In this document: one piece after another, positions 4,165-33,095 of the stretch
Layout: every line of letters starts with the position of its first letter
Position numbering within the stretch: position 1 is the first letter of the stretch
DNA from: an uncultured Anaeroplasmataceae bacterium
GTDB lineage: Bacteria > Bacillota_I > Bacilli_A > Acholeplasmatales > Anaeroplasmataceae
Assembly: GCA_949840955.1 (NCBI GenBank)
Contig: CATKXV010000002.1
Location: 1-64,000, forward strand
Length of the DNA stretch: 64,000 nucleotides
Direction of reading: 5' to 3'
Translations under genes and position numbers: made by a program
The notes under the pieces: model-generated
Seen by the model: the letters and a program-made list of their open reading frames with translations, nothing else
Databases searched by the model: none
Told to the model about the DNA's origin: nothing

Positions 4165-4185
4165 TATCGAATTTAAATATATTCT

Positions 4186-4779: not shown

Positions 4780-4803
4780 TCACTATCATTCCTCAATTGA
4801 TTT

Positions 4804-7113: not shown

Positions 7114-7130
7114 AGAAGACCTCCTTTTAT

Positions 7131-8084
7131 CTAATTAAAATCCTTAGCTATAACTTCAGCTAAATATTCATATGCCTTATATGCCTCTTCTTCATCATTT
7201 GAAAAAATATACTCTCTATCATTCTTTAATTCACAAAGTACACCTTCAGAGAATTTAAATCTTTTAACTTCAGGAATTCCATATTTATCGTAATTTAGCA
7301 TATCAAAATCAAATCTACATTCAGACCCTTGACTATCTAATTCTAATCTTAATTTTTCTAAATCATCTCTTACTTCTTTTCTGACATTTTCCAAATTAAA
7401 CTCTCTACCATTAATAACAATTTTCTCCTGTGGTACAACATTAAATAGTGGAATAAACTCTCCTGCAACACCCAATGCTTTTCCTTTTAAGAAATCTATT
7501 GTTCCTTTTCTGTGCTGTCTTGTAATTCTCATTACAACAACAATTTTATCGCTTTCTTCAAATACAGTTTTTCCAATAATTTGTCCACCTGCAGGCATAT
7601 CAAAAATAACTGCAGCAGCTCCATAATTCTCACAAACCTTTAAAAAGTTACTAATCGTTAAATTTGACGTCCCATCAAATTTTGATATTGTTTTAGTTGG
7701 TTGAACTGGAACAAATAAAACACTTTTCCCATGTGTTATATGATTCAATCCAAATTCTGCTCCTACTGGTAAAAACTTTTCATAAAGCCCAAATTCTGTA
7801 AATGGTTTTATAGGTGTTCCTCTTGATGCTGCAGCATATTTACTGAAAATAGTCTCTTTTGTATTTAATAACATATTCGTTGTAAAAAAATTGGGGTCTT
7901 CTTTTTTTATCTCATTTTCTGTTAATAAATAAGACAATCCCGCGCTATCAGCATCTAAATCTACTAAGATTATAGGATGCTCTTTACTCGCATTTAATTT
8001 TTCTACTAAAAAAGGAATCGTATTATAAATAAGGGAACTTCTTCCTGAGCCACCCTTATATGAAAAATAAGATGTAACTAACAT
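7131..8084 (-). CDS. ParA/MinD-like ATPase with variant KGGxGR P-loop
   Basis: 317 residues with the deviant Walker A of SIMIBI ATPases at the N terminus, YKGGSGRSS (residues 9-17). The usual lysine before the last serine is arginine here, while the signature lysine (K10) is kept. The Walker B region ILVDLDADSAG follows near residue 40, and FDMPAGGQ near residue 160 resembles the switch region. Related proteins dimerise on ATP to position partners on membranes or DNA. The K-to-R change may weaken hydrolysis. The gene lies between two large unknown proteins and has a strong AGGAAGGAG ribosome binding site. It is not accompanied by ParB or parS, so a plasmid partition role is unlikely. Confidence 0.75.
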   Translation of the reverse strand: MLVTSYFSYKGGSGRSSLIYNTIPFLVEKLNASKEHPIILVDLDADSAGLSYLLTENEIKKEDPNFFTTNMLLNTKETIFSKYAAASRGTPIKPFTEFGLYEKFLPVGAEFGLNHITHGKSVLFVPVQPTKTISKFDGTSNLTISNFLKVCENYGAAAVIFDMPAGGQIIGKTVFEESDKIVVVMRITRQHRKGTIDFLKGKALGVAGEFIPLFNVVPQEKIVINGREFNLENVRKEVRDDLEKLRLELDSQGSECRFDFDMLNYDKYGIPEVKRFKFSEGVLCELKNDREYIFSNDEEEAYKAYEYLAEVIAKDFN

Positions 8085-8107
8085 TTCTTTAATCTCCTTC
8101 CTAACCT

Positions 8108-10156: not shown

Positions 10157-11294
10157 TTCTTTTACCCCATTTCTTAAAATAATTTGTCTCTATTTTTAAA
10201 GCAAATATAACTCCTGCATGAATAGTTTCTTTTGCACTCCAAACTTTTATAGTTTGAAAATTTTTACCAACCAGTAATAATTCTTGATTTTTTAATATCC
10301 AATAAATATCCTTTGCAAAAAAATAATTATTTTCATAGAATTCCGTCCCTTTTATATCTAATAAATATTGCGTATGATTCAAAAGAACTTCATTTGCCAT
10401 TGATAACTCAATATGCTGTTGTTCCTCTTGTGTAAAGCAATTACGATACACATCATTTATAAGATCGCTGACTTTATCTATCTGTCCAACAACAGGAATT
10501 AAACACTTGTTGCTTATTAAGGAAATATAATCTTGATTTGCATCAATAATTCTCCATTCTATTAAATCTAATGGATAAAATAGACCACTATGAGTGGAGC
10601 CATAAAACTCTTCATCCCACTCATTAGTTATAATTTTTCCGTTTGCTTCACGATTTAAAGATATTGCGTTCTTTTGTGGAAATCTTCCAATTGTTGCTAT
10701 TAAAAATTGGTCTTTCCTTCTAATTCTTTTTTCTTCCAATAATCCTAATAAAATGCATTCTTTGTCATTAATCACAGACCTGTGGACTTTTTTAATATCC
10801 TTAATTAGAATATCTAAGCTTTCTTTTTTTGGTGTTTGATATAATACTTCTTTACATAGTAAGGAATCCTTTTGATTCATATCTGCTATTTTGAGTTCAT
10901 CCTTAGGTATATCTAATACCATTTTTTCTATTCCACCCTCTTCTAAGAAAATGGGATAAAAATGAAAACCTGATTTAGTCAAAGATTTCATATAGAAATA
11001 TTCTTCCTTGCAAGCATCGCTTTTCAGATACGATTTACTTACAAAGCACAAACAACCCTTACAATGAGAATTAGAAATAAATTTTATAACTTCTTCATCC
11101 CATCTTTTCCCAGTAGTCAAATCATAATCATACCAATAATTGACAAATTTAGAATATAAATAATTTAAAATATTGAATACTAATTCATAATCTTTATGCG
11201 AATAACTGACAAACAAATAATTGTCTATATCTTCATCTAGAGTTTCTCTATCAAGATATAATTTGGGTTTTATCATTTTCATATTCATCACCAT
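10143..11294 (-). CDS. TIR domain protein with DUF6273-like C terminus
   Basis: About 380 residues. The N-terminal TIR domain (residues about 24-140) starts YLFVSYSHKDYE and carries SDACKEEY, which places a glutamate at the catalytic position of NAD-consuming TIR domains. The C-terminal half (about residues 190-380) contains LDLIEWRIIDANQDYISLIS, resembling DUF6273 modules, where a W-R-hydrophobic-D pattern precedes a strand. The gene overlaps the HD-RyR-SLOG stop codon, which argues for translational coupling. Several in-frame ATGs lie within 20 bp; the one at 11282 has GGTGA at good spacing and may be the true start. In nucleotide-signalling systems the TIR is usually the effector, and the SLOG/RyR neighbour would be the sensor. 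Confidence 0.75.
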   Translation of the reverse strand: MVMNMKMIKPKLYLDRETLDEDIDNYLFVSYSHKDYELVFNILNYLYSKFVNYWYDYDLTTGKRWDEEVIKFISNSHCKGCLCFVSKSYLKSDACKEEYFYMKSLTKSGFHFYPIFLEEGGIEKMVLDIPKDELKIADMNQKDSLLCKEVLYQTPKKESLDILIKDIKKVHRSVINDKECILLGLLEEKRIRRKDQFLIATIGRFPQKNAISLNREANGKIITNEWDEEFYGSTHSGLFYPLDLIEWRIIDANQDYISLISNKCLIPVVGQIDKVSDLINDVYRNCFTQEEQQHIELSMANEVLLNHTQYLLDIKGTEFYENNYFFAKDIYWILKNQELLLVGKNFQTIKVWSAKETIHAGVIFALKIETNYFKKWGKRNGTK

Positions 11295-13549
11295 TAATTG
11301 ATAATATGAATATCTGTGATTTGAGCAGAATTCTTTATCTTCATTCCTTTTTCTTTCATAGCTATTGATAAGCTATGATAAGTTCCTCCACGATTAATTT
11401 CCTTATGCTCTTTACTATCAAATAAATCTCGTTCTGTTCCATCCCATATAGCAATCAGTTTATCACAACGTTCTATAATATATGCCGCTGCTGCTGCATA
11501 GGTATTGATAGGGTCTTTTTTTATTTTTAGAGAAACTGCTTGAGCTAAAAGGTGACGCATTCTTAATTCATCATTTAATGTATAATCTATTCCATGTTTT
11601 AAAGCATCATTTTTCACATCTTCAATATACTCTTCATAATCCATCGGTATAACTGCTTTAGTGGTGATTCCTAGTTCTGTTGCACATTCCGCAATAAGTT
11701 GACCAGCACCATAAGCATAAGATGTTCGAACAACAACTCTATAGTTTTCTTTATAAATTTTCAATATTTTTTTAATTCTTTCCTTGATTTTTTGAGGGTT
11801 CTGCAGTCCAAATCTATGGCCGATTCCTCCAATTTCTAAGGTATCCTTTCTTCCATATCGATAATTATAAATTTTTATATTGCTATCAAACTTTCTTAAT
11901 AATGGAATAAGATTTTTAATAACCATTTCGTTCTTGAGTTTTTCGGTATCACTTAATTTATCAAAGGGAACTAGACTCTTATGGATTTTCTTTTCATTTC
12001 TTTCTTGCGTAGTTTGATAGTCATTTCCATACACCCAACCTAAAGAAAGTTTCTCTTTAACCCATCTAACATGTTCCTCTCTAGATAAAAAGCCTAAATG
12101 ATCTATACCATTCTTTATAAAAAGGTCTTTATTTATATCTTCTATAACTGGATAATCTAAATCTTTACTACTATAAAAGCAATTGATTAGTTCTAGCTTT
12201 GAGGCATAGGATTTTGCTTGTTCAATATTGGATAATTTAAATTCTAATGGCAAATTTGAAAAAGCTTCATTAATATATTCTGATGTAAAGTCTAAGCAAT
12301 GATCTAAATAGCTTGCATGTATTGCTTTAGCTAAATCACATAAATTTATGAAATTATTATCTGACATATATAGTTCTTGTCTTTTTTCTTTTTTTCTTTG
12401 CTCCACTTTTGCATTTATTTGAAATGAATAATCAATATAGTCTTTCAATTTGTTTATAAATTTTCCATCTTTTATTTTTAAATAGCTGTCATTAAGACGT
12501 ATATCCCCATTTGCCTCTACAATCGTATATGTATCAAAATAATAAGTTACTGAAAGCAAATCATCTTTAATAAAGAATTCTACATCCCAAGCTATAGGAT
12601 CTCTTTTGCTTATTTTCCCATAGGCTAATCTATCCCATATTTGCAATTCATCACAAAGAATTAATAAGAAGGCTAATGGATTTTCTTGCAATGATATACT
12701 ATGACACTCCTCCTTGGCTATCGCTTTATAATCGTATTTATTAAAATTATTATGAAGAAGTATAGCTGTTAATACATCTAAATCAATTCTATTTAATTTA
12801 TGATTAGTTTTAAGCATTTTCTTTGCTAAAGTAACTGCACTAAAATAACCATGATCTATAAAATTGGGTTGCTCTACTATTCTTTGATAAAGCAAAGGAC
12901 CTACCTTGCTCTCTTCATATCCTTCATGTAGATATAATCCATAGGCCAATAAATTATTTATATTATCAAACGTTCTTCCAAATTCTTTTTCTAGAAGGCC
13001 TTGGTCTTCTAAATCTAAATTTAAAAATGAATTTAAATTTCCAAAAGAAACATATAATTGTGGTTCATTCTTCCATATTTCAGTACAATAGTTTTTAATT
13101 TGCTCATGAGCTAGTTGAAAAGGATATCCTATATCATGAAAGAGGGCTGTAATCCCCCAATACTTGAGAAAAAATATTGCGTCATTTTTATGATTCAATT
13201 TATAAAATTTCCCAATTTCACTTCTTAAAACCTTTAGATTTTCAAAAATTGCAAGTCCAATTAAAAAAACATATACTGAATGAGAATAATGATCTCTATG
13301 CTTTGAAAGCAATTCACCAGAATGATATTCATGATCAGATAGCATCTCTAACAAATTCTGCGTGTTTTCGTAGCCTCTCCCAAACACTTCAAATATTTCA
13401 CAAAAGCAATAATATACTGAAAATGCATCCTCTTTTGTTCCTGTTTTTATAAATCTGTCAATTGAATTCCTCAAACACAATTTATTTGAATTATTTTCCA
13501 TATTTAAATTATCAAAAAACGTATGAATATAATCTATGAATTTCTCCAT
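11294..13549 (-). CDS. HD-RyR-SLOG multidomain protein, first gene of island 1
   Basis: 751 residues from the ATG at 13549, chosen because GGAGG sits seven bases upstream; a longer frame from a TTG at 13627 would run through the promoter. Domains in order: an HD phosphohydrolase-like domain (about residues 80-280, with ALFHDIGYPF near 136), a RyR domain (about 490-545, EHVRW), and a SLOG/LOG-like Rossmann domain (about 570-751, with SYAYGAGQL, DKLIAIWDG and RGGTYHS). SLOG and RyR domains are proposed to sense or generate nucleotide ligands, and HD domains hydrolyse phosphate esters. A combined ligand-handling sensor that controls the TIR effectors is the natural reading. Transcription starts from the G-tract promoter just upstream. 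Confidence 0.75.
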   Translation of the reverse strand: MEKFIDYIHTFFDNLNMENNSNKLCLRNSIDRFIKTGTKEDAFSVYYCFCEIFEVFGRGYENTQNLLEMLSDHEYHSGELLSKHRDHYSHSVYVFLIGLAIFENLKVLRSEIGKFYKLNHKNDAIFFLKYWGITALFHDIGYPFQLAHEQIKNYCTEIWKNEPQLYVSFGNLNSFLNLDLEDQGLLEKEFGRTFDNINNLLAYGLYLHEGYEESKVGPLLYQRIVEQPNFIDHGYFSAVTLAKKMLKTNHKLNRIDLDVLTAILLHNNFNKYDYKAIAKEECHSISLQENPLAFLLILCDELQIWDRLAYGKISKRDPIAWDVEFFIKDDLLSVTYYFDTYTIVEANGDIRLNDSYLKIKDGKFINKLKDYIDYSFQINAKVEQRKKEKRQELYMSDNNFINLCDLAKAIHASYLDHCLDFTSEYINEAFSNLPLEFKLSNIEQAKSYASKLELINCFYSSKDLDYPVIEDINKDLFIKNGIDHLGFLSREEHVRWVKEKLSLGWVYGNDYQTTQERNEKKIHKSLVPFDKLSDTEKLKNEMVIKNLIPLLRKFDSNIKIYNYRYGRKDTLEIGGIGHRFGLQNPQKIKERIKKILKIYKENYRVVVRTSYAYGAGQLIAECATELGITTKAVIPMDYEEYIEDVKNDALKHGIDYTLNDELRMRHLLAQAVSLKIKKDPINTYAAAAAYIIERCDKLIAIWDGTERDLFDSKEHKEINRGGTYHSLSIAMKEKGMKIKNSAQITDIHIIN

Positions 13550-13597: not shown

Positions 13598-13627
13598 ATT
13601 ATACCCCCCCCCACATAATTTTGTCAA
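13598..13627 (-). promoter_or_regulatory. Island 1 promoter with G9 tract in the spacer (putatively phase variable)
   Basis: On the minus strand a perfect -35 TTGACA (13622-13627) and a perfect -10 TATAAT (13598-13603) are separated by 18 bp, made of nine mixed bases plus nine consecutive G (13604-13612). The predicted start of transcription is about 40 bases before the ATG of the HD-RyR-SLOG gene. A homopolymer between -35 and -10 is a classical slipped-strand switch: one base fewer gives the optimal 17 bp. The same promoter occurs in front of island 2. Confidence 0.8.
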
Positions 13628-13662: not shown

Positions 13663-13675
13663 TGTAGTGCTATTA
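13663..13675. repeat. Motif shared upstream of both island promoters (copy 1)
   Basis: TGTAGTGCTATTA on the plus strand matches 12 of 13 bases of the sequence at 33142-33154. It lies 36 bp upstream of the island 1 -35 box. It may be a regulator site or a remnant of a common module carrying the promoter. Confidence 0.4.
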
Positions 13676-13732
13676 TAAAAGTAGACACATAGGGGGGGAA
13701 TTAGTAGACAGCATAATATAATAAGTATACAT

Positions 13733-13746
13733 AACCCCTAGGGGTT
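13733..13746. promoter_or_regulatory. Perfect 14-bp palindrome
   Basis: AACCCCTAGGGGTT is a perfect palindrome, unusually G+C-rich for this AT-rich gap. It has no T run, so it is not an intrinsic terminator. It could be an operator for the island or for a lost plus-strand gene. Confidence 0.4.
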
Positions 13747-13797
13747 GTCGACACTTCAAATAACAAAGGAGGCAAAATAAATTCTTACTTGTGATCA

Positions 13798-19783: not shown

Positions 19784-21055
19784 TTAATCTTTTAATAAAT
19801 TAATCGGAATAACATATATCCCATCTGCCCTCTTATAAGCTCTACCACTTGCAGTTAAAATCATCTTAAATGATGGTTTCTTGTAATTCGGATCTAAATT
19901 ATTTTCTAACTTATTCAAGTTATTAACGGCATCTGTAATTCCAGCCTCACTACCTAGTTTAATCTCAACTGCTGCCCATCTTCCATCATCTAGATGAATA
20001 ACAGCATCACATTCAAGTCCATTACTATCCCTGTAATGACGAACTACACCATCTAAAGTATCTGCATAAATGCGCAAATCACGTATAGCAAAATCTTCAA
20101 AAAATAAACCGAAAGTCTTTGCATCATTCATTAAATCCTTTTGAGATATTCCTAATGCTAGACATGCTAAAGATGTATCAACAAAATGCCTCGTCGGAGT
20201 TGTCCTTATTGCAATCTTACTTCTTAAATTTGGTGTCCATGCTTCCATATCTTCAATAATGAATAATTCTTCCATAATTTCCAAATAGGAATCGAATGTT
20301 TTAATATCCATCGTTCTACTATTTGAAGATACAACATCAGCTAATATTGTTTGATAGGGTGCCTCTGTAGAAATATTTCTAGCATAACTTTTCATAATCA
20401 TTTTTAAAACAGACGGTTTTTTATTTTTATATTTTTTATTTTCGCTATTTTTAAAATTAAATAAACCATCAAAATAATTTTTGGTTACATCTAAAGATAC
20501 TTCCTCATCTTTCTGAATGGATAATGGCCATCCACCTCTACAAATATAAAAGGCTGTTTTAGATAATCGATAATCATCATTCATATCAAATACTTGATAA
20601 TTAGCATTATCAAATAGTTCTCTTAATGAAACTACCCCTTTGGAATCACCCGATTCATAAAGAGACATTGTTCTCATAATTACTGGGGTTATGCGCCCTG
20701 ATCCAGAATGATGAATTTTAGTATAATCTGGGGGTGTGGCACTGCCAGTTAAAATGAATTCTCCAAATTTACCATCCTCATCTATTTGTTTACGAATATA
20801 ATTCCATAACTCAGGAACATTTTGCCATTCATCTATAAGTCTTGGATATTCTCCTATTAATGCGTTTTGGGGATCAGCAGATACAATTCCTATAATTTCA
20901 TCATCAATAAGTTGAATCATACTTTTATGAAATAATTTACATGTCGTTGTTTTTCCGCAGAATTTCGGTCCAGTCACTAAAATTGCACCAGATGATTTAA
21001 ATTTTTTCTCAATTTTTTGTTCTATATAACGCGTATAATATTTTTTCATTGACAT
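19784..21055 (-). CDS. AAA_14/DUF4143 ATP-binding protein
   Basis: 423 residues. The N-terminal ATPase domain has Walker A VTGPKFCGKTTT (near residue 31) and Walker B-like RLIDEWQNVPELW, then FILTGSATPP as sensor 1. The C-terminal DUF4143 domain has the nuclease-like core LECDAVIHLDDGRWAAVEIKLG, a D-ExK-type arrangement. Proteins of this family are common, often in many copies, in anaerobic Bacillota and Bacteroidota; their role is unsettled, with defence or toxin-like roles suggested. The gene is monocistronic, with three 23-bp repeats directly upstream of its promoter. Confidence 0.85.
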   Translation of the reverse strand: MSMKKYYTRYIEQKIEKKFKSSGAILVTGPKFCGKTTTCKLFHKSMIQLIDDEIIGIVSADPQNALIGEYPRLIDEWQNVPELWNYIRKQIDEDGKFGEFILTGSATPPDYTKIHHSGSGRITPVIMRTMSLYESGDSKGVVSLRELFDNANYQVFDMNDDYRLSKTAFYICRGGWPLSIQKDEEVSLDVTKNYFDGLFNFKNSENKKYKNKKPSVLKMIMKSYARNISTEAPYQTILADVVSSNSRTMDIKTFDSYLEIMEELFIIEDMEAWTPNLRSKIAIRTTPTRHFVDTSLACLALGISQKDLMNDAKTFGLFFEDFAIRDLRIYADTLDGVVRHYRDSNGLECDAVIHLDDGRWAAVEIKLGSEAGITDAVNNLNKLENNLDPNYKKPSFKMILTASGRAYKRADGIYVIPINLLKD

Positions 21056-21069
21056 TCAGCTCCGTATAT

Positions 21070-21098
21070 ATAATACCATATAAAATACAGCAAATCAA
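21070..21098 (-). promoter_or_regulatory. Promoter of the DUF4143 gene
   Basis: -35 TTGATT (21093-21098) and -10 TATTAT (21070-21075) are 17 bp apart on the minus strand. The three tandem repeats end only a few bases upstream of the -35 box, the usual place for activator sites. Confidence 0.55.
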
Positions 21099-21102
21099 TA
21101 AA

Positions 21103-21165
21103 ATTCCCAAGATTGTGGAGAAAAAATTCCCAAGATTGTGGAGAAAAAATTCCCAAGATTGTGAG
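21103..21165. repeat. Three tandem 23-bp repeats upstream of the DUF4143 promoter
   Basis: ATTCCCAAGATTGTGGAG occurs at 21103 and 21126 and with one deleted base at 21149, at an exact 23-bp period with A-rich linkers. The period is close to two helical turns, so bound protein copies would align on one DNA face. There are only three copies, with no spacer diversity, so this is not a CRISPR array. Confidence 0.85.
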
Positions 21166-21203
21166 ATTCCATTGCAAATATAATGTCGATATTAAAAGAT
21201 GAT

Positions 21204-22448
21204 TTATTTACAATACTTTAAAAGTATATCTCCAAAACGATCTCCAATAGTGGAGGATAGTTTTTCTGAAGAACCTTCAACAACCTCATCTCCTGATGGT
21301 AAAACTCTATTTACTAATCTTTCCCTTCCAACAATACGATTAACAATATTTCTATCTCTTTTATCCTTTATATAAGTATTTTCATCAAACAAAAAATCAA
21401 ATGAAACCATAGGCATTATGTTCAATTCTTCCTCTGTTATACCCAATATATTTAATAAATCAGCAAATCGGATTATTTGAATCCTTGATCCATTTTGATT
21501 TGCTTCCAAAACACGAGTAAATCTTTCATCTTCTTTTAATTTTCCATCCTCATCAAAATAATCATAGGAGATAAAGGTATTTATTAAAGATGTTTTATTT
21601 GTTACAGTTCCTCCTTCGTTAACTATTATTTGAATCAAATTAAGTATTTGACAATAATGATGATTTTCATAATTTAGGCTCACAGATATAATTTTATCTT
21701 TTAGTTTATTACCAACTATTCCTTGAGGATTCACATTTTCTAAAAATTGAGAATACTTTTTCTTGTTTAAATGACTCTTTTCTAAATCATTGGTCCCATC
21801 TCCGCTAAGAGTTTCCATAAATTCTTTTTTTCTTTGAGCCCAATTTTCTTCTATAGAACGAATGAGAAAATTCTCTGTCCTATCTTTAGCACTAGGACAT
21901 AGCTCTATTAACTCTTCTAAAGACATTTCTAACTTTTCAAGCATTGCTTTCATTTCTAGCATTGTATTAAAAGCATCTGCAAAAGCATCATGCTGTAAAG
22001 CTTCTCCTTCAATTTCTAATTCTTTTAAAATATCTGCAACACCGATGCTTTTTGAAGTGTTTTTATATTCCTTATAGAATTCTTTCACATCATAGAAATC
22101 AAAATCTATACTTTTTAAACCATATCTCTTACACTCATCGTTTAAAGCACTAGCGTCTGAATCTAATGTATGCCCTATAACATAGTCACACGATAAAATC
22201 AATTTTTTTATTTCATCATAATAAAATGAAAATATTGAATTTTTCTCATATTCTGAAATTCTACGTGTTAAAATCTTTCGTACTACTCTATAGTCCCATT
22301 CTGATTTAGAAATATTTGGATTTATAATAAGATTATTTTTTGATATCACTTCAAATTTTTCATTTGTAATTACATAACCAAATTCACATATTTTAGATAC
22401 ACCACCTTTTGACGTGGCATACTCTAAATCAAAAAATAAGTATCTCAT
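21204..22448 (-). CDS. DEDDh 3'-5' exonuclease with C-terminal BRCT-like domain
   Basis: 414 residues. The RNase T/PolC-type exonuclease domain (residues 1-175) keeps all catalytic positions: FDLEYA (DxE), GHTLDSDASAL (D) and HDAFADAFNT (HxAxxD). A BRCT-like domain fits residues about 245-345: a strand KIISVSLNY, NEGGTVTNKTSLINTFIS and the helix/strand RFTRVLEAN...SRIQIIRFADLL. Such pairing resembles epsilon-type proofreading exonucleases found in repair contexts. It is the last gene of island 2, 77 bp after the radical SAM gene, with GAGGT as ribosome binding site. It could trim nucleic acid handled by the helicase. Confidence 0.8.
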   Translation of the reverse strand: MRYLFFDLEYATSKGGVSKICEFGYVITNEKFEVISKNNLIINPNISKSEWDYRVVRKILTRRISEYEKNSIFSFYYDEIKKLILSCDYVIGHTLDSDASALNDECKRYGLKSIDFDFYDVKEFYKEYKNTSKSIGVADILKELEIEGEALQHDAFADAFNTMLEMKAMLEKLEMSLEELIELCPSAKDRTENFLIRSIEENWAQRKKEFMETLSGDGTNDLEKSHLNKKKYSQFLENVNPQGIVGNKLKDKIISVSLNYENHHYCQILNLIQIIVNEGGTVTNKTSLINTFISYDYFDEDGKLKEDERFTRVLEANQNGSRIQIIRFADLLNILGITEEELNIMPMVSFDFLFDENTYIKDKRDRNIVNRIVGRERLVNRVLPSGDEVVEGSSEKLSSTIGDRFGDILLKYCK

Positions 22449-22525: not shown

Positions 22526-23071
22526 CTAAAGTACAGCATCACCATTAGCAAAAATATAATCACTAACATTGATTTCAACTGTTTTTGATTCGTTATTAAA
22601 AAACCAGTCTTCACAGTTTGGATATCTATCACTTAAAACAATAATCCTTTGGTTTATTGACCCTAGAATTTTCCTTTTATTTTCTCTTTTACTGTCAATA
22701 TATTTTCCATCAAGCACTACATCACAACCAGCAAGAATGTCAGATACATCTTCATACTTTTTCCCAGTAAAAGAAATAACACCTAGACCAAGTTTATGGA
22801 TGGCAGCGGTTAGTAAAGGAAGGTTTTGTTGAAGAGTTGGCTCTCCACCAGAATATGTTACTCCTTCTATGTTGTAATTTAATTGTGAAACTTTAATGAT
22901 TTTTATTAAATCTTCTAAACTAAGAATATTTCTAGGTTTTAATGGCTGATAATCAGGATTACAGCATCCTTTACAACGTATTGTACAACCTTGGAACCAA
23001 ATTGTTAATCTTTTATTTGGCCCTTCGGTTTCTGTACAGCAATTAATACTAGCTACATTAAATTTAATCAT
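22526..23071 (-). CDS. NrdG-like radical SAM enzyme without an NrdD partner
   Basis: 181 residues from the ATG at 23071, which overlaps the stop of the ClpB-like gene (translational coupling). The 4Fe-4S site is FQGCTIRCKGCCN (CxxxCxxC), preceded by TEGPNKRLTIW as in NrdG activases, and the SAM-binding TYSGGEPTLQ follows near residue 72. NrdG proteins make the glycyl radical of anaerobic ribonucleotide reductase, but no nrdD is near and the gene is locked inside an AAA+/helicase operon. It may generate a radical on, or modify, another island protein or a nucleotide; this is inference. A QueE-like role is less likely given the NrdG-type N terminus. Confidence 0.82.
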   Translation of the reverse strand: MIKFNVASINCCTETEGPNKRLTIWFQGCTIRCKGCCNPDYQPLKPRNILSLEDLIKIIKVSQLNYNIEGVTYSGGEPTLQQNLPLLTAAIHKLGLGVISFTGKKYEDVSDILAGCDVVLDGKYIDSKRENKRKILGSINQRIIVLSDRYPNCEDWFFNNESKTVEINVSDYIFANGDAVL

Positions 23072-24896
23072 TTTCAAAACTAAAGTCCAGCCCATCTTTA
23101 GTTGTCTTAACAAGGATTTTTGCCCCCTTAAATGAACTTAAATCTTGTTTGTTTTTAAACATAAATATTGCAAGATCATCTAATAGCTTATCATTAATTG
23201 CATTTAAAATATCACGGCCACCTTTACTGCTATCTGCGCCACCTAGAATATAATTGATAAATTTTAATTTATCTTCAAATTCTAGATCAATACGATATTT
23301 TTCAAGGATTCCTTTTTGAATAGGAATAAGTTTAGATTCAGCAATCTTGATACTAAATTCTTTGTCTTTAATGAAATTAAATGGAACAATGTTGCTATAG
23401 CCAATTCGGCCAAGAATTTCAGGTCGTTTAATTTCATTATCGAAATAGTTCTTAACAACCTTAATAAACTCTTCAGCTACGTCCTCATTTGAACCACTTG
23501 AAGATACTTCTGAGGCACCTAAGTTTGAAGTGAAAATAATTATACTTTCACTAAAATAAACTGTTTCTCCCTTGGAATCTGTTAATCTACCATCTTCTAA
23601 AATTTGTAAAAATATATCCAATATTCTCGGGTTAGGCTTTGCAGCTTTTTCTATTTCATCAAATAGGATAATACTAAATGGTTTTTCTCTTACCGCATTA
23701 GTTAATTGTCCACCTTCTTCATATCCTACATATCCTGGTGGAGCACCAATAAGTTTTTGGTCACTATTTTCTTGTGCGTATTCTGACATATCAAATCTAA
23801 TGCATGCTTGTTCATCACCAAATAAGAACTTAGCCAACGCTTTAGATAATTCAGTTTTACCAACACCAGTAGGGCCAACAAAAAATAATACGCCTTTAGG
23901 TGCAGATCTACTAGAAGATTTATGGATTCCCGTCAATCCCATATATGCCTTAACAACAACCTTCTCTATCTTCTCAATGGCTTCATCTTGGCCTACAACT
24001 CTTTCACGAAGAATCTTTTTAATATTCTTTACTGCATTGTAATCTAGTTTTTCCCAAGGATTGTCCTTTTCACCATATCTGAACAATAAATATAGTTGTT
24101 CAAAAGGCATCTTACCTTCTTTCCTAGACAATCGTGCCATTTGCACTATTTCACGATTTGAGAAGTCATCCAACATATCAACAAATTCATTCTTCTTATC
24201 ACATGTTAACAAAGTCTCCCCTGGTTTAAGCTTCACTTCAAAACCACTTTCAATTTTTTCTAACATTTTTTCTCTTTCTTCTCTATCAGGTTTTGATAAA
24301 GAAACACATGCCACTTCTGGATTTCCCTGATAGAAAGAAATTGGGAACATTGCAACTTTACTTGTGATAAGAATGATTGTGCTTTCATTCACTTCGGAAT
24401 TTAGATAATCAACCTTCCTATCTTTAATTGCTTTTCCTAATATTGTAAGAAGTTCTCTTTCATCTGGTGGTAGTTGTCCTCCTGCTGAGAATAAATAATC
24501 TGCCCAATTTAGGACAAAGGCGATTTTTCTATTAGGTCTCTTAAGATTTTTAAAAATAATATTAAAAATATCTGCCGGGGTTTTATATAACCCACTTCCT
24601 GTTTTTTCTTCTTTTTTCTTATCTTCATCATCATCAAATGAATATTCATCGCCTTCAACTTCAATTTCTTCAATGGTATGTAACCTCGAAATATCTCCAT
24701 CAATTCCATCAACTCTGTCCCAGTAAAGAACATCATCATATTTCATTGATCTAAGCATATCCATAAGGTATTGTTTTAAATCGACAATTTGCCTTTTTTC
24801 GTTTAAGTACACATCACCTACATTACCATCTATAATTAAACATTTTTTGATACCTATTTCCCTTTTGAGTCTATTAAATGTTGTACTTAATGCCAT
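23064..24896 (-). CDS. ClpB/HSP104-like AAA+ ATPase with degenerate first module
   Basis: 610 residues. The C-terminal half is a Clp-type AAA+ module: VVGQDEAIEKI, Walker A GPTGVGKTE (near residue 337), the pore-loop region GAPPGYVGYEEGGQLT, Walker B ILFDEIEKA (near residue 409), sensor 1 IFTSNLG and sensor 2 SKGGRDI. The N-terminal half (1-290) looks like a first AAA module that lost Walker A, with an acidic insert around residues 75-100. The second half resembles Clp D2. No tripeptide for ClpP docking was evident, so it is more likely a remodeller than a protease subunit. It starts 6 bp after the coiled-coil gene with a GGGGTG ribosome binding site. Confidence 0.85.
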   Translation of the reverse strand: MALSTTFNRLKREIGIKKCLIIDGNVGDVYLNEKRQIVDLKQYLMDMLRSMKYDDVLYWDRVDGIDGDISRLHTIEEIEVEGDEYSFDDDEDKKKEEKTGSGLYKTPADIFNIIFKNLKRPNRKIAFVLNWADYLFSAGGQLPPDERELLTILGKAIKDRKVDYLNSEVNESTIILITSKVAMFPISFYQGNPEVACVSLSKPDREEREKMLEKIESGFEVKLKPGETLLTCDKKNEFVDMLDDFSNREIVQMARLSRKEGKMPFEQLYLLFRYGEKDNPWEKLDYNAVKNIKKILRERVVGQDEAIEKIEKVVVKAYMGLTGIHKSSSRSAPKGVLFFVGPTGVGKTELSKALAKFLFGDEQACIRFDMSEYAQENSDQKLIGAPPGYVGYEEGGQLTNAVREKPFSIILFDEIEKAAKPNPRILDIFLQILEDGRLTDSKGETVYFSESIIIFTSNLGASEVSSSGSNEDVAEEFIKVVKNYFDNEIKRPEILGRIGYSNIVPFNFIKDKEFSIKIAESKLIPIQKGILEKYRIDLEFEDKLKFINYILGGADSSKGGRDILNAINDKLLDDLAIFMFKNKQDLSSFKGAKILVKTTKDGLDFSFEND

Positions 24897-24902: not shown

Positions 24903-26018
24903 TCACCCCTTATTTTTATTTGTATTCATCGCTTTATATTTCATAGTAGAAATCTTGTCTGGATTACTCCATATTTCTTGAGACTTAGTGACATGAATAC
25001 CATAGACATCCTCTAAGTCTTTCATAAATGGCTCTATGTCCTTTTGGCAAGCTTGGCCTTGATATCCATGATGAAAATCATAAATAAATTTACCATCCAT
25101 ATATATTTTGAAATCTGCACGTTCACCACTTGCCTTTAAAGCCACCATATGGACTTCATTAGTTTCTTTATTTATCCTAATATTTTTTTTGTCCACAATA
25201 AATCCTCTATTAGCAATTGCCTTTATAATAACCTTCAATGATTGCTGTCTTACAGTTTCGCCAATGACTTCCTTTGTTGCTTGGAATTGCATTTGTGAGA
25301 GTTTTTCTTTTGCTGTTTGAGCATTTTTGGCCATAATTTTTTTGATAATTTCTTTATCAACTCTTGCATTTTCTAGTTCTTCTCTAATTTTTTCTTCCTC
25401 TAAAGCCAATCTAGATTCAAAAGTACTATTTAAAGACATCTCCATCAATTCTTTACCTGCTTTGATTAATTCATCGCCAGTTAATGAATTGTTTTTAATA
25501 AAAGCAAGATATGTAAATTGCCTTAGCATATCATCTTTTATTGAATTTAAAACAGATTGAGTTCTAGCATCAATTGTCACTTCTCCTCTAGAACGTTCTA
25601 GCATTTTTCTATAGCCTTCATTAGAACTTTCTATTAATAAATTATCCAATAAAGAATGGAATTCAATCAACTTATTGGCAGAAAGATTATTAACCATTTC
25701 CTCGAGTTGATTAGCTTCGTTAATAGTTTCATTTCTATGAGCATATCTTTGATCATGATTATTCACATGAACAACACCCATCTTAGCATCTTTTTTAGCC
25801 TTTTCTTTAACCTTTTCGATTTGGGTCAATAATGTTTGTTTTTCTTTTTTGATAGTTTTTTTTAAATCTTCAGTTTGAGAATTCAATAGTCTAGTTGCTG
25901 TACTTTCAACCTCAGCAAGCATATCTTCTAATTCTAGAAGTTTTTTTTCAGCCATATTACAAATAGCGTTACACTGACAAGCAATATTTTTATAATCGAT
26001 TTGCACTTGTTGACTCAT
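24903..26018 (-). CDS. Coiled-coil protein of island 2, function unknown
   Basis: 371 residues, family not recognised. Residues about 20-90 and 190-245 are rich in heptad-like E/K/L/A runs and predict long coiled coils. A compact C-terminal domain (about 255-350) with alternating strands (NRGFIVDKKNIRINKETNEVHMVAL, in two pieces) ends in FHHGYQGQACQKDIEPFM. The start codon overlaps the stop of the HEPN gene (TAATG), showing tight coupling. Its location between the HEPN protein and the AAA+ remodeller suggests an adaptor or substrate of the ATPase. Confidence 0.6.
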   Translation of the reverse strand: MSQQVQIDYKNIACQCNAICNMAEKKLLELEDMLAEVESTATRLLNSQTEDLKKTIKKEKQTLLTQIEKVKEKAKKDAKMGVVHVNNHDQRYAHRNETINEANQLEEMVNNLSANKLIEFHSLLDNLLIESSNEGYRKMLERSRGEVTIDARTQSVLNSIKDDMLRQFTYLAFIKNNSLTGDELIKAGKELMEMSLNSTFESRLALEEEKIREELENARVDKEIIKKIMAKNAQTAKEKLSQMQFQATKEVIGETVRQQSLKVIIKAIANRGFIVDKKNIRINKETNEVHMVALKASGERADFKIYMDGKFIYDFHHGYQGQACQKDIEPFMKDLEDVYGIHVTKSQEIWSNPDKISTMKYKAMNTNKNKG

Positions 26019-28231
26019 TACTTATTACCCCCTATTTCGAATACGATATCTCTCCACTCTTCAATATCATTCTTTGTGTATTGAATTTGTTCTCTTTCTG
26101 GATGCTGAAACCCATTTCTAGCTTTTCTCATAGTATGTAGAGATGACCGTTTAGTGGCATCAATTAATTCAGCCTTTTCAGCCATATTAATCAATTCATG
26201 GGCATCTGTTAAATCTCCAGCCTCTAGGATTTTTCTTAAATCATATTGCAATTTGACTAACAAATCACAAATGGCATTCTTAAATCTTCCTTTTGTTAAA
26301 TTATCATTAATGTATTTCTTTGTAATCTTGTCTGGATGGGATGAAGAATCTCTTTCAATTGATAAAAATTCATGTATTGGCTCGTAAATTGCCAAGTACT
26401 TTTTTAACTTATTAAATTGTTCAGATGCGAACCTTGAATACTTATCAATTTCTTTAACAGCCTTAGATAATGTCTCATAAGCTTTAAAAAAATCGTCGAT
26501 GTTATAATCATCTTTCAATGTACAATTTGAATAGTCTACAATACCTAGCATATCATTTAAATTCCATAGATTTACTGAAATTATCTTGAAGTTGTGAGAG
26601 ATATTTGTATCAGCAGATATATTCTCATCATTTAAGATCTTATTCATATAATCCTCAACAACATTTACAACACCTAGAATTTGACTGGTTTCAAATCCAG
26701 CCGTTTCTAATGCTTGACATACCAAATCACGATCTTCGTTAATAACCGCTTTAGAGAAGAACTCAATATAATCATTACCACTCATACCTAATTCATTTTT
26801 TAATGGTGTCAATATCGTGTTTTTATAAATCATATTATCCAACTTTATTTCTTCAGCACTACTTATTAGAAGTTTTTTACCTAAATTATTAAATAATACT
26901 TTCCAATCTTTATTTGCCTTGAAAGATGTATTTAGTTTTAAAAGTAAATCTATTTTTTCATCAATTGCATTACATTTATCCAATTTATTAATTGAATACT
27001 CTTCAAATAATACTGGTTGATTTAAAGTATCAATAATAAATAGCATTGCTCTACTATTTTCCGTTGAATAACCCTTTTCAAAATAAATACTATATAATTT
27101 TTCAAGAATTTTCTTCAATACTTCATCACTTGCGCCTTGCTCAACTAATAATTGAATTTCAAAAACATCTCCAAATTTTTCACAAGGCATTGCTACATTT
27201 AATGCATTATAGTACTTTAGAGTTTCTTTATCAAGCAAAGCAAATTCTGCATTTTTATCTAATATATTTAAGATTACATTTGCATCATCCTCTGTTAACT
27301 GAATTGCACTATCAAATCCCTTAACGCCTAATCTATTTCTATTGAAAAAAAACTTACAAGGTCGAGATGCTTGTTTTTGAGCATCATCTGGAATATATAT
27401 ATTTGAGATATTTAATAATTCTTTCAAATTAACTGTCGGGATATCAAGAGCTTCTTTTTTAGAATTAACAAACTTATATTTATTCTTAACTAACAAACCT
27501 CGGGTCATTAATTTAGAATCAAAGTACTGATGAAAAAAAACATTCTCATCTGAAGTGTCAAATTTAAATTCTACTCCAGAAGGTCTAATAATGATTGTCA
27601 TTCCATCTTCTTTTCTAATATGTAATTTTTGAGGTTCTTCATATTCAAAAGAGACTATTCTTTCTTCAGCCTTAATACCTATCTTAGAGCCATTTGCATT
27701 GATATAATCCTCCATTCCACTTATATCCAATTTCACTCTATCCATGAAATCATCACCTAAAAATGTACTCGCTAGAGACATATATGATGTTTTACTTTCT
27801 ACATCAAATTTTCTAGTTACAGGACTATAGTAAATATCTTTTACCTTTACTTTTTCAGCACCAGTAGGAATAGCTCCTTCTTGAAACATTTTCTTTCCTT
27901 TAGCAGTAAGAGCAACATCAGATAATGTAATTTGCCTAAAATATTTTAAATTTATAAAATTGGTTGGTTTAACATTTGATTCAATTATATCTGTGCTTAA
28001 TAAATTAGCCATCTCCTGCCCAAAAATATAATGCAAATCTTGAGGAATTCCAATTTTTAATAACACATCCGAAATTTTTTCTCTAGATTTACCTTCTTTT
28101 TGAATCAAATTTAATAGAATATATGCAATGCCAGATGCTTTTCGAACTTCGTTATATTTAACACGAGTCTTGTATACTAAGAGGGGAAAAGGACATGTTG
28201 TTTTAAATTGTTTTAATACTTTTTCTTCCAT
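26018..28231 (-). CDS. Large protein with C-terminal HEPN-type RNase motif
   Basis: 737 residues from the ATG at 28231 (GGAG upstream). An N-terminal segment around residues 30-125 could be winged-helix-like. The last 90 residues are helical and contain RKARNGFQHPE, in which R705-N-x3-H710 matches the HEPN RNase active-site pattern R-(N/D/H)-x3-H in the second long helix. HEPN domains are metal-independent RNases that act as effectors in toxin-antitoxin and phage-defence systems. The middle (about 170-620) is unrecognised. The gene begins 6 bp before the helicase stop is cleared, so the two are coupled. The HEPN assignment rests on the motif and its helical context and needs a profile search. 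Confidence 0.65.
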   Translation of the reverse strand: MEEKVLKQFKTTCPFPLLVYKTRVKYNEVRKASGIAYILLNLIQKEGKSREKISDVLLKIGIPQDLHYIFGQEMANLLSTDIIESNVKPTNFINLKYFRQITLSDVALTAKGKKMFQEGAIPTGAEKVKVKDIYYSPVTRKFDVESKTSYMSLASTFLGDDFMDRVKLDISGMEDYINANGSKIGIKAEERIVSFEYEEPQKLHIRKEDGMTIIIRPSGVEFKFDTSDENVFFHQYFDSKLMTRGLLVKNKYKFVNSKKEALDIPTVNLKELLNISNIYIPDDAQKQASRPCKFFFNRNRLGVKGFDSAIQLTEDDANVILNILDKNAEFALLDKETLKYYNALNVAMPCEKFGDVFEIQLLVEQGASDEVLKKILEKLYSIYFEKGYSTENSRAMLFIIDTLNQPVLFEEYSINKLDKCNAIDEKIDLLLKLNTSFKANKDWKVLFNNLGKKLLISSAEEIKLDNMIYKNTILTPLKNELGMSGNDYIEFFSKAVINEDRDLVCQALETAGFETSQILGVVNVVEDYMNKILNDENISADTNISHNFKIISVNLWNLNDMLGIVDYSNCTLKDDYNIDDFFKAYETLSKAVKEIDKYSRFASEQFNKLKKYLAIYEPIHEFLSIERDSSSHPDKITKKYINDNLTKGRFKNAICDLLVKLQYDLRKILEAGDLTDAHELINMAEKAELIDATKRSSLHTMRKARNGFQHPEREQIQYTKNDIEEWRDIVFEIGGNK

Positions 28232-28237
28232 CAACTA

Positions 28238-31200
28238 TCACTCTCCAATAATATCATCTGCGTTTAACACTTTTCCTCTAAAGTTAATAGTGTCTATAAT
28301 TTCTTTATATACATGAAAGTTATTTTTGTCCAAGGCGTGATTCCCAGTCAAATCTGGCAAATCAATTATTCCTGCTTCTGATAAGTACTTCTTAGCCCCT
28401 ACCACAATCAATAACTTTCTTGCACGTGATAATGCAACATTAATTCTTTCAAATTTTTTAATAAAGTCAGCATTTGATTTATTAGGATTTGATGGATTGC
28501 GAACCATCGAAACTATAATTACATCACGCTCGTCACCTTGGAAATCATCAACTGTACTGATAATTAATCTTTCATCAGATTTTCTAGATAATCCTTCAAA
28601 TTTTTGTCCTCTTATTTTTTTCTTAATCAGACCAGCTTGATCACCATATGTACAAATGATCCCTGCACTTAATCTTTCATCAATTTTTCTTTGCTTATTT
28701 ACTTGTACTTTCCTTTGATTAACAGCTTCTTGACTTGCTTTATCAATTTGCTTTAATAATTGCATTGCAACTTGTGCTTCTTGCTCATTTATTTTAGAAG
28801 TGCTTCCTTCATATGCGCTTGATTCATTTTGATTACAATCAATAAAATAAACATGGTATTTAGGCTCAATAATAGTATTGCCTTTAATTTTAACAGTTAA
28901 ATTATGCTGCTTTTCATCATCTTGATGTTTCTTACCAACCATCAAGCCATTGTTACTCCCTCCATAAAAATGATTAAATACTTCCATAATATGGCTGTGA
29001 CAACGATATTGTTTATTTAGCATTACTCTAAAATCTTGGGGAACTTTTTCGTATAAAGTCTTAAAAAAACATTCCTCATATAATTCGGTATATGAATCAT
29101 TAATATCTTTATTAATTATTCCTTCATCGAGTCCTTCGAAATCTTCATTTCTCATATGTCTTAAATCATACATGGGTGGAAGTTGTCTATGGTCTCCAAC
29201 CAGTATTATTGTCTTACCATATAAAATTGGTATTAATAAATCTAAGAATGAGGACTTTGAAACTTCATCAATGATTATAACATCAATACCTTGAGAACGA
29301 ATATCAATAGACTCAATACCATACTTACCAAGTTCAGCCACCTGAGTTTTTGTAAACCTATCTCTACTTGTACATGTAATTCCAAAGACATTTACACAAT
29401 TATAAAGTTCTCTTGTATAAGCTTGTCTATCTTCTTCAAGAATATCCCCCTGTTCAAGATATTTGCAAATCTCCTTATACATAGGAATTTTCTTTTTATT
29501 TTCTTTGTTTGTCTTTTTATAATCATATTCGAGTTTATTCCACTCTTCATTGATAATAGTGAATGCAGTTTCTAAATTTTCAGAATCATATTCTTGTATA
29601 ATATCAAAGTCTCTAAAGAATCTTGTAATTTTTTGCTTTAAAATTGAATTTAATTCATTATATTCTACTATTCCTTCATTATTGCCAAGTGTTTCATATT
29701 CAGTTTTATTGATACTAATCTTTTTTTGAATATCAATAATCCTTGAATTCAGTTCTTCTTTATGAGTAACGAAGTGAGACATTGACATATCAACTCTTTC
29801 TTTAATTTCGTTCATAATGGATTGAACTTGAATCTTGAATGAAACTATATCATTAGGAAGATTTTTTAACAAATCTTTGTCATTAATAATAGTTGGAACT
29901 AATGAAAAAATTTTGCTGGAAGAAAAATCAAAGTCAGCATTTTTTGAAGCCTTAATTTGATTGACGACATCTATTAATTCACTTTGACATTTCTTATATT
30001 CAGCATAGTTTTCATCTCCTTCTTTAGGAGCATCATCCGTATCAGGATCTCTAAGGCGCTGTAATTCATTTCGTAATTTTATTTTACGTTCTTCTAATTT
30101 ACCAACGGTATCATTAGATAATAAATATGATAGTTCTAGTTTAATGTTAGATACATCCATTTTATATAAATCATTTACTTTATCAATTTCAACAGTTTTA
30201 AGAGTTAAAAATGATTGTAGTACGTTTTTTATTCTATTCTGCAATTCTTGAACGAATTCTTCCTTAATTCCCTCAGCGCAAAAATATAAGGAGTCAATAT
30301 ATTTATTTGTTCTTCTATATTCATCTAATTCAAAATTAACACTCCTAAGATTTTCACGATACTCTTCTAAATTCTTATTGTATTTGTTTATAGTATCTAG
30401 AATCAAATCTCTTTTTTTCTCTATTTTTAAATTATCTCTTTTTAATTCTAAAACTCTGTTATAATCCTTTCTTAACAAACTCATTTTTTCATCAAATGTT
30501 TTCTTAGATTCTTCAAAGTTTTCAAATCGATCTATTTGTTTTTCAAGATTTCCCCTTATATTCAAATAAAAATTATCGACTAATTTTTCTGGGCTATAAT
30601 CAGACTCTTTTCCATTCGTAGAGGGAATTAATCTCAAAGGCCTAATCTCGGGAATTTTAGGTAATCTTTCAAATACATTATCTATAGCCTTGTGCGTTTC
30701 AGATGATATTAATACCTTTTTACCTTGTCGAGCAAATTGAGCTGTAATTTCAGCAATAACCTGTGTCTTACCAGTTCCCGGAGGACCTTGTAATAAGAAC
30801 ACACTCTCACTAGCTAGAGCTTTCTTGACAGCCAATTTTTGACCATCATTTAAACTTTCTAGGCACCAATCAGGATCCCTGGTTGCACTAAGAGGAGCCT
30901 GTGCTAATGTACTTGGCGAAAATAAATATGTTGGTAAAAATGGATTCTTTACATATCCACCCATAAATGAATTTAAGGCTTTTTCTTGTCTATCAATTTT
31001 TGCTTTTTCAGCACGATTATCATAGACAAGATATTTTAATTCAATTTGTCCAACTTCCTTGTTAATATCTGAAAATCTATCACTCAATGAATCTGGTCTA
31101 AAGTAGATTTGATATCTCCTTATTGTTTCATTCTCAATTTTAATTGCTTTGTCAGATTCGAATTGTTTTTTATATTCAGAAAAGGTTTTTGTTTTTTCTT

Positions 31201-32863
31201 CTTCAATTTGGTTTTTATATTGGATATCTAATTGTTGTTTCTTATCTTTACTTAAACGATCTAATTCAGCTTGCATTTGAATTTGTAAACTCTTCTTTTT
31301 GCTTTCTACAAGCTTTTTATTTCTAGCAATATACAGTTCCTTTAAAGAAATCTCTGCAATTGCTTTTTCTTTTTGAATCTCTAATTTTGAGATTTTATCT
31401 TCCAAATTTGAATTGATTTTTTTTATTTCTTTTTTTTCTTCTTTTTCCTTTAAGTCTTTCTTCTTTAATTTTCCAATTTCATCATCAGCTTTTGTTTTTT
31501 CCTCTTTTATTTCATTATCAAATGGAAGAGACACATTTTTTACGAAAGCATCATATTCTTTTCTTATTTCTTTATCTTTATTATCTAAGACATCCTTTTC
31601 TAATGAATTGAAAAGTTCCTCAGCATATTCATTATAGGCAGTATTAAATTGACTTTCGGTAATTGGACGTTGAAATTTCATATAATGACTCAAATCATTT
31701 TGTATAATACTTAAGTATCTTGTATCAATTTCATCAAAGGATTTCTTGCAATTTTTATCGAATTGCCTTTCTAATTCAGTGCAGTCCGGATTAATATCAA
31801 CATAGGATAATAGATATCTCTCACCTAAAAGGTATTGTGTAAATCTAGAACCTTTTTGTATATTTCCATTCTCATCATATGTGGGTATATTGGGGGATAG
31901 CCCCATTGCATCCTTAGTATATCTTTGCAAATTCACCTCAAATTTGCTCTTTCCTTTTCCAAAACGGTCAATCGTTTCACTTAAGACTTGCTTTCTATTT
32001 TTATCAATAATCACCTTAATTAAAGGAAAACTTTCAGAACCTTGAACATTTTTTGATAGAATAATCTGCTCTCCTCTTGCAAATTCCGCAATATTATCTA
32101 AAAGATATTCTGATAATGATTCCTCATTTTTTCGATATACTTCTTTAGTAACCATATACGAATCACAAGCAACTACATCATCGATTTCTTCACATCTTTC
32201 AGATAATTTTCCTAAATAGTATTTTCTAAAGTCAATATATTTTTTCCATTTTTCAAATATTGCAATTGCTTCTTTTGGATTAGGAACTGGATAGCATAAT
32301 TTATCATTGCATAACTTATCAACAAAATCTCGAGTTAATACAGCATCTTTTAAATCACGGGTTGCATAATTTGGAACAGAAATCATTCTTCCTTCTCTAT
32401 TAGATATTGATTTGTTAGAAATTGCAACCGCTACATTACATTTCACAGGTATTTCTCCAAACTTTGCTACATTGGAGTCAATTAATTCAATACCTTTTAT
32501 AGTGATATCAGTAATACTATTTCCAAAAGTAACATCCCCTATAATAATTAAATCATATCTTGATGAAATGATTTGGTTCAACAATTGGTCTCTTTCGGGC
32601 CTAATTACAATATTATAAATTGTATTCACACCTCTTCTATTTTGCTTGATTCTACGATCAAAACTAGGCATTGATATAAAGTAATTTTTTGCAGTTTGTA
32701 TAGGAAATGCATAAGAAAGAAATTCTTGAATGCTTGTCACAGATCCGTTAAGTTTTCTATTGATAACTTCAAACTGTTCTTTTAAAGAAGTAGTATAAAA
32801 ATCATCCCAGTTTTTACTTCCTTGCTCCAGATTATCTGAAAAGTTTAAATATAAGTAACTCAT
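28238..32863 (-). CDS. SF1 (Upf1/DNA2-like) helicase with large insertion, first gene of island 2
   Basis: 1541 residues. A long N-terminal region (1-650) with heavy coiled coil at about 425-590 precedes the helicase. Motif I is LLQGPPGTGKTQ (near 691), motif Ia ISSETHKAIDNVF, motif II VIIIDEVSKSS (near 1199), motif III LVGDHRQLPP (near 1221), motif V TVDDFQGDERD (near 1439) and motif VI NVALSRARK (near 1477). About 450 residues, mostly coiled coil, are inserted between motifs Ia and II, far longer than the usual stalk. Members unwind DNA or RNA-DNA. The ribosome binding site AAGGAG lies rather far (about 15 bases) from the ATG. The operon promoter with the G11 tract lies 200 bp upstream. Confidence 0.88.
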   Translation of the reverse strand: MSYLYLNFSDNLEQGSKNWDDFYTTSLKEQFEVINRKLNGSVTSIQEFLSYAFPIQTAKNYFISMPSFDRRIKQNRRGVNTIYNIVIRPERDQLLNQIISSRYDLIIIGDVTFGNSITDITIKGIELIDSNVAKFGEIPVKCNVAVAISNKSISNREGRMISVPNYATRDLKDAVLTRDFVDKLCNDKLCYPVPNPKEAIAIFEKWKKYIDFRKYYLGKLSERCEEIDDVVACDSYMVTKEVYRKNEESLSEYLLDNIAEFARGEQIILSKNVQGSESFPLIKVIIDKNRKQVLSETIDRFGKGKSKFEVNLQRYTKDAMGLSPNIPTYDENGNIQKGSRFTQYLLGERYLLSYVDINPDCTELERQFDKNCKKSFDEIDTRYLSIIQNDLSHYMKFQRPITESQFNTAYNEYAEELFNSLEKDVLDNKDKEIRKEYDAFVKNVSLPFDNEIKEEKTKADDEIGKLKKKDLKEKEEKKEIKKINSNLEDKISKLEIQKEKAIAEISLKELYIARNKKLVESKKKSLQIQMQAELDRLSKDKKQQLDIQYKNQIEEEKTKTFSEYKKQFESDKAIKIENETIRRYQIYFRPDSLSDRFSDINKEVGQIELKYLVYDNRAEKAKIDRQEKALNSFMGGYVKNPFLPTYLFSPSTLAQAPLSATRDPDWCLESLNDGQKLAVKKALASESVFLLQGPPGTGKTQVIAEITAQFARQGKKVLISSETHKAIDNVFERLPKIPEIRPLRLIPSTNGKESDYSPEKLVDNFYLNIRGNLEKQIDRFENFEESKKTFDEKMSLLRKDYNRVLELKRDNLKIEKKRDLILDTINKYNKNLEEYRENLRSVNFELDEYRRTNKYIDSLYFCAEGIKEEFVQELQNRIKNVLQSFLTLKTVEIDKVNDLYKMDVSNIKLELSYLLSNDTVGKLEERKIKLRNELQRLRDPDTDDAPKEGDENYAEYKKCQSELIDVVNQIKASKNADFDFSSSKIFSLVPTIINDKDLLKNLPNDIVSFKIQVQSIMNEIKERVDMSMSHFVTHKEELNSRIIDIQKKISINKTEYETLGNNEGIVEYNELNSILKQKITRFFRDFDIIQEYDSENLETAFTIINEEWNKLEYDYKKTNKENKKKIPMYKEICKYLEQGDILEEDRQAYTRELYNCVNVFGITCTSRDRFTKTQVAELGKYGIESIDIRSQGIDVIIIDEVSKSSFLDLLIPILYGKTIILVGDHRQLPPMYDLRHMRNEDFEGLDEGIINKDINDSYTELYEECFFKTLYEKVPQDFRVMLNKQYRCHSHIMEVFNHFYGGSNNGLMVGKKHQDDEKQHNLTVKIKGNTIIEPKYHVYFIDCNQNESSAYEGSTSKINEQEAQVAMQLLKQIDKASQEAVNQRKVQVNKQRKIDERLSAGIICTYGDQAGLIKKKIRGQKFEGLSRKSDERLIISTVDDFQGDERDVIIVSMVRNPSNPNKSNADFIKKFERINVALSRARKLLIVVGAKKYLSEAGIIDLPDLTGNHALDKNNFHVYKEIIDTINFRGKVLNADDIIGE

Positions 32864-33063: not shown

Positions 33064-33095
33064 ATTATACCCCCCCCCCCATATAATTTTGTCAA
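33064..33095 (-). promoter_or_regulatory. Island 2 promoter with G11 tract in the spacer (putatively phase variable)
   Basis: On the minus strand a perfect -35 TTGACA (33090-33095) and a perfect -10 TATAAT (33064-33069) are separated by 20 bp: nine bases almost identical to those in island 1, then eleven G (33070-33080). A 20-bp spacer is far from optimal, so this copy is predicted to be weak or off. Loss of two or three G would restore 18 or 17 bp. Confidence 0.8.

Follow-up and report, generated by a model that had tools for sequence, protein, structure and literature searches.

Poly-G spacer promoters before conflict-type operons and surface genes in Anaeroplasmataceae: a probable phase-variation switch

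Two accessory operons behind one promoter design

The window analyzed here, a 64-kb stretch of DNA (64,000 nucleotides) from an uncultured Anaeroplasmataceae bacterium, carries two accessory operons on its minus strand, island 1 and island 2. Island 2 begins with a gene for a 1541-aa SF1 (UPF1/SMUBP2-like) helicase that is MkoA-like (28238..32863), followed by a 738-aa protein with no family match (26018..28234), a 371-aa protein that is conserved in the operon and has no function assigned (24903..26018), a 610-aa AAA_2 (Clp-like) ATPase resembling PDC-M37B/DolB (23064..24896), and a 195-aa radical SAM protein of the Fer4_12/NrdG-like type (22526..23113). The same slot holds further accessory genes on the same strand (19784..22448), encoding a DEDDh exonuclease-like protein and an AAA_14/DUF4143 ATPase. 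The complete five-gene operon was also found in the related genome G001 and in three more genomes from two other families, and partial versions occur in further genomes, including mycoplasma-like ones that read TGA as sense. An R-N-x3-H motif near the C terminus of the 738-aa protein is invariant in five orthologues and suggests a HEPN RNase. PDB profile searches with the 738-aa and 371-aa proteins returned nothing useful, and the structure predicted for the C-terminal region of the former was of unusable quality (pLDDT 51).

The helicase places island 2 near Mokosh (MkoA) and other SF1-helicase defense systems. It matches the MkoA, MkoC, PLuB, and Hhe models, with NCBIfam scores far under the curated cut-offs. 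An assignment to Mokosh was rejected: an MkoA-like helicase is present alone, with neither MkoB nor the MkoC helicase-PLD fusion, and the other operon proteins gave no Mokosh matches. Unlike Mokosh, island 2 is a five-gene operon in which the helicase has AAA_2 and radical SAM partners. Island 1 opens with a 750-aa protein containing a RyR domain (11294..13546); the remainder (603..11294) encodes a TIR protein (383 aa), proteins of 682, 317 (AAA), and 769 aa, a GNAT protein, a TIR-methyltransferase (434 aa), and a 687-aa protein, all on the minus strand. Phage RyR-domain proteins bind or cleave the cyclic-ADPR signals that TIR proteins make (PMC13232231), and a TIR-signal system is therefore plausible for island 1. 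It was not classed as Thoeris because ThsA is absent; the 434-aa TIR protein gave weak ThsB matches, and a RyR domain is found instead. Both gene sets look like conflict systems, in line with a suggestion made in a preliminary description of this DNA.

Each island is headed by an intergenic promoter that is co-oriented with its operon, on the minus strand. The island-2 promoter (33064-33095), TTGACA-AAATTATAT-G11-TATAAT, consists of a -35 box, TTGACA (33090..33095), a 5' spacer half, AAATTATAT (33081..33089; family consensus AAANTATAY), a G11 homopolymer (33070..33080; GGGGGGGGGGG), and a -10 box, TATAAT (33064..33069), giving a 20-bp spacer that is predicted to be weak or off. The island-1 promoter (13598-13627), TTGACA-AAATTATGT-G9-TATAAT, has its -35 box at 13622..13627, a G9 homopolymer at 13604..13612 (GGGGGGGGG), and its -10 box at 13598..13603, and the spacer is 18 bp. 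The distance from the -10 box to the start codon is 51 nt in island 1, where a GGAGG ribosome site precedes the ATG of the first gene, and 200 nt in island 2. At both sites the homopolymer sits between the -35 and -10 boxes, as in promoters of the porA, fetA, and vlp type. The preliminary description had read 33064-33095 as a second copy of the island-1 design with G11 and a 20-bp spacer, and the sequence bears this out. It had also described the nine spacer bases and both boxes as an almost exact match, with only the G count different; both boxes are the same, and the non-G spacer bases are identical at 8 of the 9 positions.

These two promoters contain the only runs of G8 or longer within the 64-kb window. 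In shuffled versions of the window, 0.27 G8 matches were expected and the maximum was 2. Perfect matches to TTGACA-N9..20-TATAAT were found five times against 0.67 expected, a number reached in none of 100 shuffles.

Distribution of the poly-G promoter and the genes it precedes

A search of the whole genome (2.10 Mb in 34 contigs) for TTGACA-N9-Gn-TATAAT yielded four promoters, which account for four of its five runs of G9 or longer, so the design is not limited to the two window sites. Within the genus, 7 of 11 genomes together have 20 such sites, and a pattern search across Anaeroplasmataceae found 13 of 55 genomes with a total of 32 sites, all with exact boxes. Loci of three of these genomes are 100% identical to contigs of Anaeroplasma bactoclasticum NALB_7863_1 and of an Anaeroplasmataceae MAG, both in the genus of the window, and of an Acholeplasmatales MAG in the same family, and on this basis the family is taken to be Anaeroplasmataceae. 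The other genomes searched in the order had none (0/105), and the poly-G promoter is thus restricted to Anaeroplasmataceae among the genomes searched in its order. Neither a reversed-pattern control nor a poly-C version of the pattern gave any site in the 55 family genomes. The earlier claim that a single promoter type, differing in its G count, precedes accessory operons is upheld, with G11 against G9 in the window and further copies beyond it.

The family form of the promoter is TTGACA-AAANTATAY-G8..13-TATAAT. Tracts range from G8 to G13 and spacers from 14 to 20 bp, with 17 to 18 bp in 20 of 30 promoters. Conservation of the spacer half exceeds that of ordinary promoters: AA directly follows the -35 box in 25 of 28 poly-G promoters versus 8 of 39 ordinary ones. 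Across the family promoters, the spacer half and G length showed no sign of compensating for each other (Spearman P 0.33). Some sites have G12 to G13 together with a broken -10 box and are likely decayed copies. At three loci with surface-protein genes (L015, L023, and L031), AAARCGCTTTAC lies immediately before the -35 box and resembles a CcpA cre site. A related tract, ATTATACT-G10-TATATT, is conserved with small variations before a HAD-hydrolase-like gene (L193, L194, L197, L198, L230, and L237); there the classic -35 box is absent, and the tract is always exactly G10 in six species of the genus.

Among 84,980 named species genomes, the pattern matched at least 119 stretches. The matches listed come mostly from metagenome-assembled genomes (MAGs) of gut Clostridia and Bacilli and from a few isolates; isolates carrying such promoters include Streptococcus henryi DSM 19005 and Blautia luti. 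Among the matches listed, the G run directly adjoins TATAAT in 97 of 124 sites. Poly-G promoters occur in assemblies from different projects as well as in isolates. Carriage of the switch by phages was rejected on the basis of one match in 2.9 million viral contigs; the specific promoter was not found among these contigs, and no viral relative of the island-2 helicase was found.

Most first genes behind these promoters encode secreted-like proteins, as judged by a simple hydrophobic-signal rule. Among the matches listed, the first gene was secreted-like at 55 of 74 poly-G sites (intergenic, with the G run abutting TATAAT and a downstream ORF present) versus 4 of 26 ordinary promoters, TTGACA-N16-18-TATAAT, in the same loci (Fisher P 2e-7). 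Within the family the corresponding figures are 22 of 31, against 6 of 24 for ordinary promoters of the window's own genome (P 0.001). Family targets include InlB/List_Bact-repeat and BspA-LRR surface proteins, a glycosyltransferase operon, a pilin-like operon, and also a PDC-M26A candidate defense operon. The common use is therefore surface variation, and the poly-G promoter is a general module of the phase-variation type, mainly for surface genes. The preliminary description had proposed a regulon of switchable conflict systems. This does not hold for conflict systems alone, since two of the four copies in the window genome drive InlB/List_Bact-repeat surface proteins and the family's first genes are predominantly secreted-like.

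Several other loci with this architecture were observed. In a Treponema sp. MAG (JAAVAP010000012.1), a full Cas12a (type V-A; L132:3558-8000) is preceded by TTGACA-TTTTTAT-G9-TGT-TATAAT, and the same 8-kb stretch contains a CRISPR array of 13 copies (L132:137-925); this locus is a possible phase-variable CRISPR-Cas system. In the cultured isolate Streptococcus henryi DSM 19005, a UzuA/homing-endonuclease-like gene (L144:5480-6376) follows TTGACA-N10-G10-TATAAT. A three-gene operon (about 188, 258, and 430 aa) stands behind poly-G promoters in four genomes from a different genus in the family (L182, L184, L188, and L189) and gave no Pfam or PADLOC matches. An 822-aa ORF (L174:5792-8260) joins BspA-type leucine-rich repeats to an N6/N4 DNA methylase domain and shares an operon with NrdG and NrdD, with a G9 promoter in front.

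The island-2 slot and the spread of the promoter

The chromosomal slot upstream of NUDIX-PrmC-Sua5 holds the poly-G promoter and the five-gene operon both in the window genome (G000) and in G001, where the operon proteins are 24 to 66% identical to those of the window. In G007 the slot contains a poly-G promoter followed by an unrelated operon (a 149-aa gene, NrdG, NrdD, and an LRR/methyltransferase gene), and in G004 and G005 it contains a lipoprotein gene and no poly-G. An ancestral poly-G before this lipoprotein gene was rejected, there being no G run at that place. In G001, the leader between the switch and the helicase gene contains, as judged by eye, remains of the 149-aa gene with which the G007 operon begins, and this suggests that the five-gene operon was inserted behind a pre-existing switch. 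Outside the family, operons homologous to island 1 and island 2 showed no G run of 7 or longer anywhere in the loci compared, and the same was true of the island-1 homologue of G001.

How the promoter came to stand at different loci is a separate matter. The preliminary description had suggested a mobile or copied promoter cassette. No large cassette is apparent: the flanks of the island-1 and island-2 promoters are unrelated beyond a core of about 30 bp, and copying of a cassette between the two islands was rejected on that ground. A smaller shared unit does exist: about 170 bp, including the end of an IS3-like element and the poly-G promoter, are found both at island 1 and before a gene for a secreted protein in G001. 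A degree of copying, or a part played by the IS, is therefore possible at island 1. In the window the element is represented by an end remnant only (TGTAGTGCTATTATAAAAGTAGACA...; 13663..13790, plus strand), 36 bp upstream of the island-1 -35 box; a relative at L227/L327, a neighboring element, has a two-ORF arrangement with matches to rve domains in the second ORF. The IS-end motif AGCACTACA lies at most 140 bp upstream of 5 of 39 poly-G promoters, against 0.07 expected (about 70-fold), in one orientation in all cases. These observations would fit an IS3-like element that carries, or travels with, the switch between loci. However, the full IS end is absent at most sites, island 2 included, different species have unrelated DNA between the IS end and the promoter, and other flanks have no homology except in orthologues and a few sites within the same genus. 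Insertion of an IS into intergenic DNA that already bore poly-G fits the same data, and we consider transport by the element unlikely. Such transport concerns the spread of the switch and is compatible with phase variation.

Probable phase variation and its alternatives

We interpret 33064-33095 as probably a phase-variable sigma-A-type promoter, a slipped-strand switch like those of porA and vlp that is attached to conflict operons. Slipped-strand mispairing would lengthen or shorten the G run and with it the distance between the -35 and -10 boxes, both of which are perfect. A spacer of about 17 to 18 bp would be active and one of 19 to 20 bp or more weak or off, and the downstream operon would be switched stochastically, reversibly, and heritably. 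By analogy with porA, fetA, and the mycoplasma promoters, and as the preliminary description also predicted, the 18-bp spacer of island 1 probably makes it active in the assembled state, and the 20-bp spacer of island 2 would leave that operon weak or off. MAG assembly can misstate homopolymer length. The conflict operons, with a putative anti-phage role, would reach the variable chromosomal slot horizontally and there come to lie behind the switch, so that at any time only a subpopulation would pay for, or gain protection from, the system.

The alternative that bears most directly on this interpretation is that these are fixed strong promoters, in which the G tract serves a structural role or binds a regulator, does not slip, and has its length under stabilizing selection. 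The conserved AAANTATAY half, the AA after the -35 box, and the placement of G on the non-template strand only would be expected of such an element, and spacer length alone leaves both the bias toward poly-G, never poly-C, and the conserved spacer half unexplained. The unchanged G10 before the HAD-hydrolase-like gene in six species points the same way; together with orthologous promoters of equal length (G8/G8 and G10/G10; G002/G004), it suggests that the length of some tracts may be under constraint and not open to slippage. Against fixed promoters, the orthologous island-2 promoters have G11 (20 bp) in the window genome and G8 (17 bp) in G001, a difference between species, as are all G-length differences here with one genome per species. 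Some of the lengths in the family range of tracts and spacers are normally poor for sigma-70, there are likely decayed variants with G12 to G13 and broken -10 boxes, and most targets are surface genes, which are classically phase-variable. A fixed, nonslipping element is, on this evidence, quite improbable. That the tracts arise by chance or as an assembly artifact is extremely unlikely. G-run lengths in MAGs are error-prone, and a small number of long runs located at contig ends are evidently artifacts, but for the existence of the tract this is refuted by 32 exact-box sites against zero in the reversed and poly-C controls, in many assemblies from different projects and also in isolates.

Promoter-spacer phase variation is textbook knowledge for surface antigens of a few pathogens. 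In Neisseria porA, the length of a poly-G spacer between the -35 and -10 boxes alters transcription (PMC3899988), as do length changes in the poly-C promoter spacer of fetA (PMC5320596), and the poly-A tract of Mycoplasma hyorhinis vlp and the spacer repeat of M. mycoides vmm underlie phase variation of surface lipoproteins (PMC10502178). Slippage that alters the -35/-10 distance is the established mechanism for these promoters. The Anaeroplasmataceae promoters share with porA and fetA the homopolymer between the boxes and with the vlp and vmm genes of Mollicutes a repeat in the promoter or its spacer. They differ in that porA and fetA encode outer-membrane proteins of pathogens, whereas the present design also heads intracellular conflict operons, and in that vlp and vmm use poly-A or dinucleotide repeats before surface lipoproteins, whereas here poly-G also precedes conflict-type operons. 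Phase-variable restriction-modification genes, such as the H. pylori modH phasevarion, carry their tracts in the coding sequence and switch by frameshifting. The likeness lies in the defense-related genes and in the control by slippage that is predicted here; the present tract, in contrast, is a promoter element whose slippage would switch an entire operon. We found no report of poly-G promoters before defense operons or in Anaeroplasma in the open-license literature.

An old type of switch thus seems to have been put to a new use, ordinary in principle and new in its place and target. Commensal gut Bacillota show this architecture repeatedly, and in the genome studied here it also heads intracellular conflict operons. 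We tentatively raise the possibility that a portable poly-G spacer promoter has been repeatedly recruited in gut bacteria to switch whole immune operons, possibly including the Treponema CRISPR-Cas12a locus, and makes immunity heterogeneous. If the tract slips, it would offer a simple sequence signature for phase-variable genes of uncultured gut bacteria, and immunity would be expected to differ from cell to cell, a prediction of bet-hedging.
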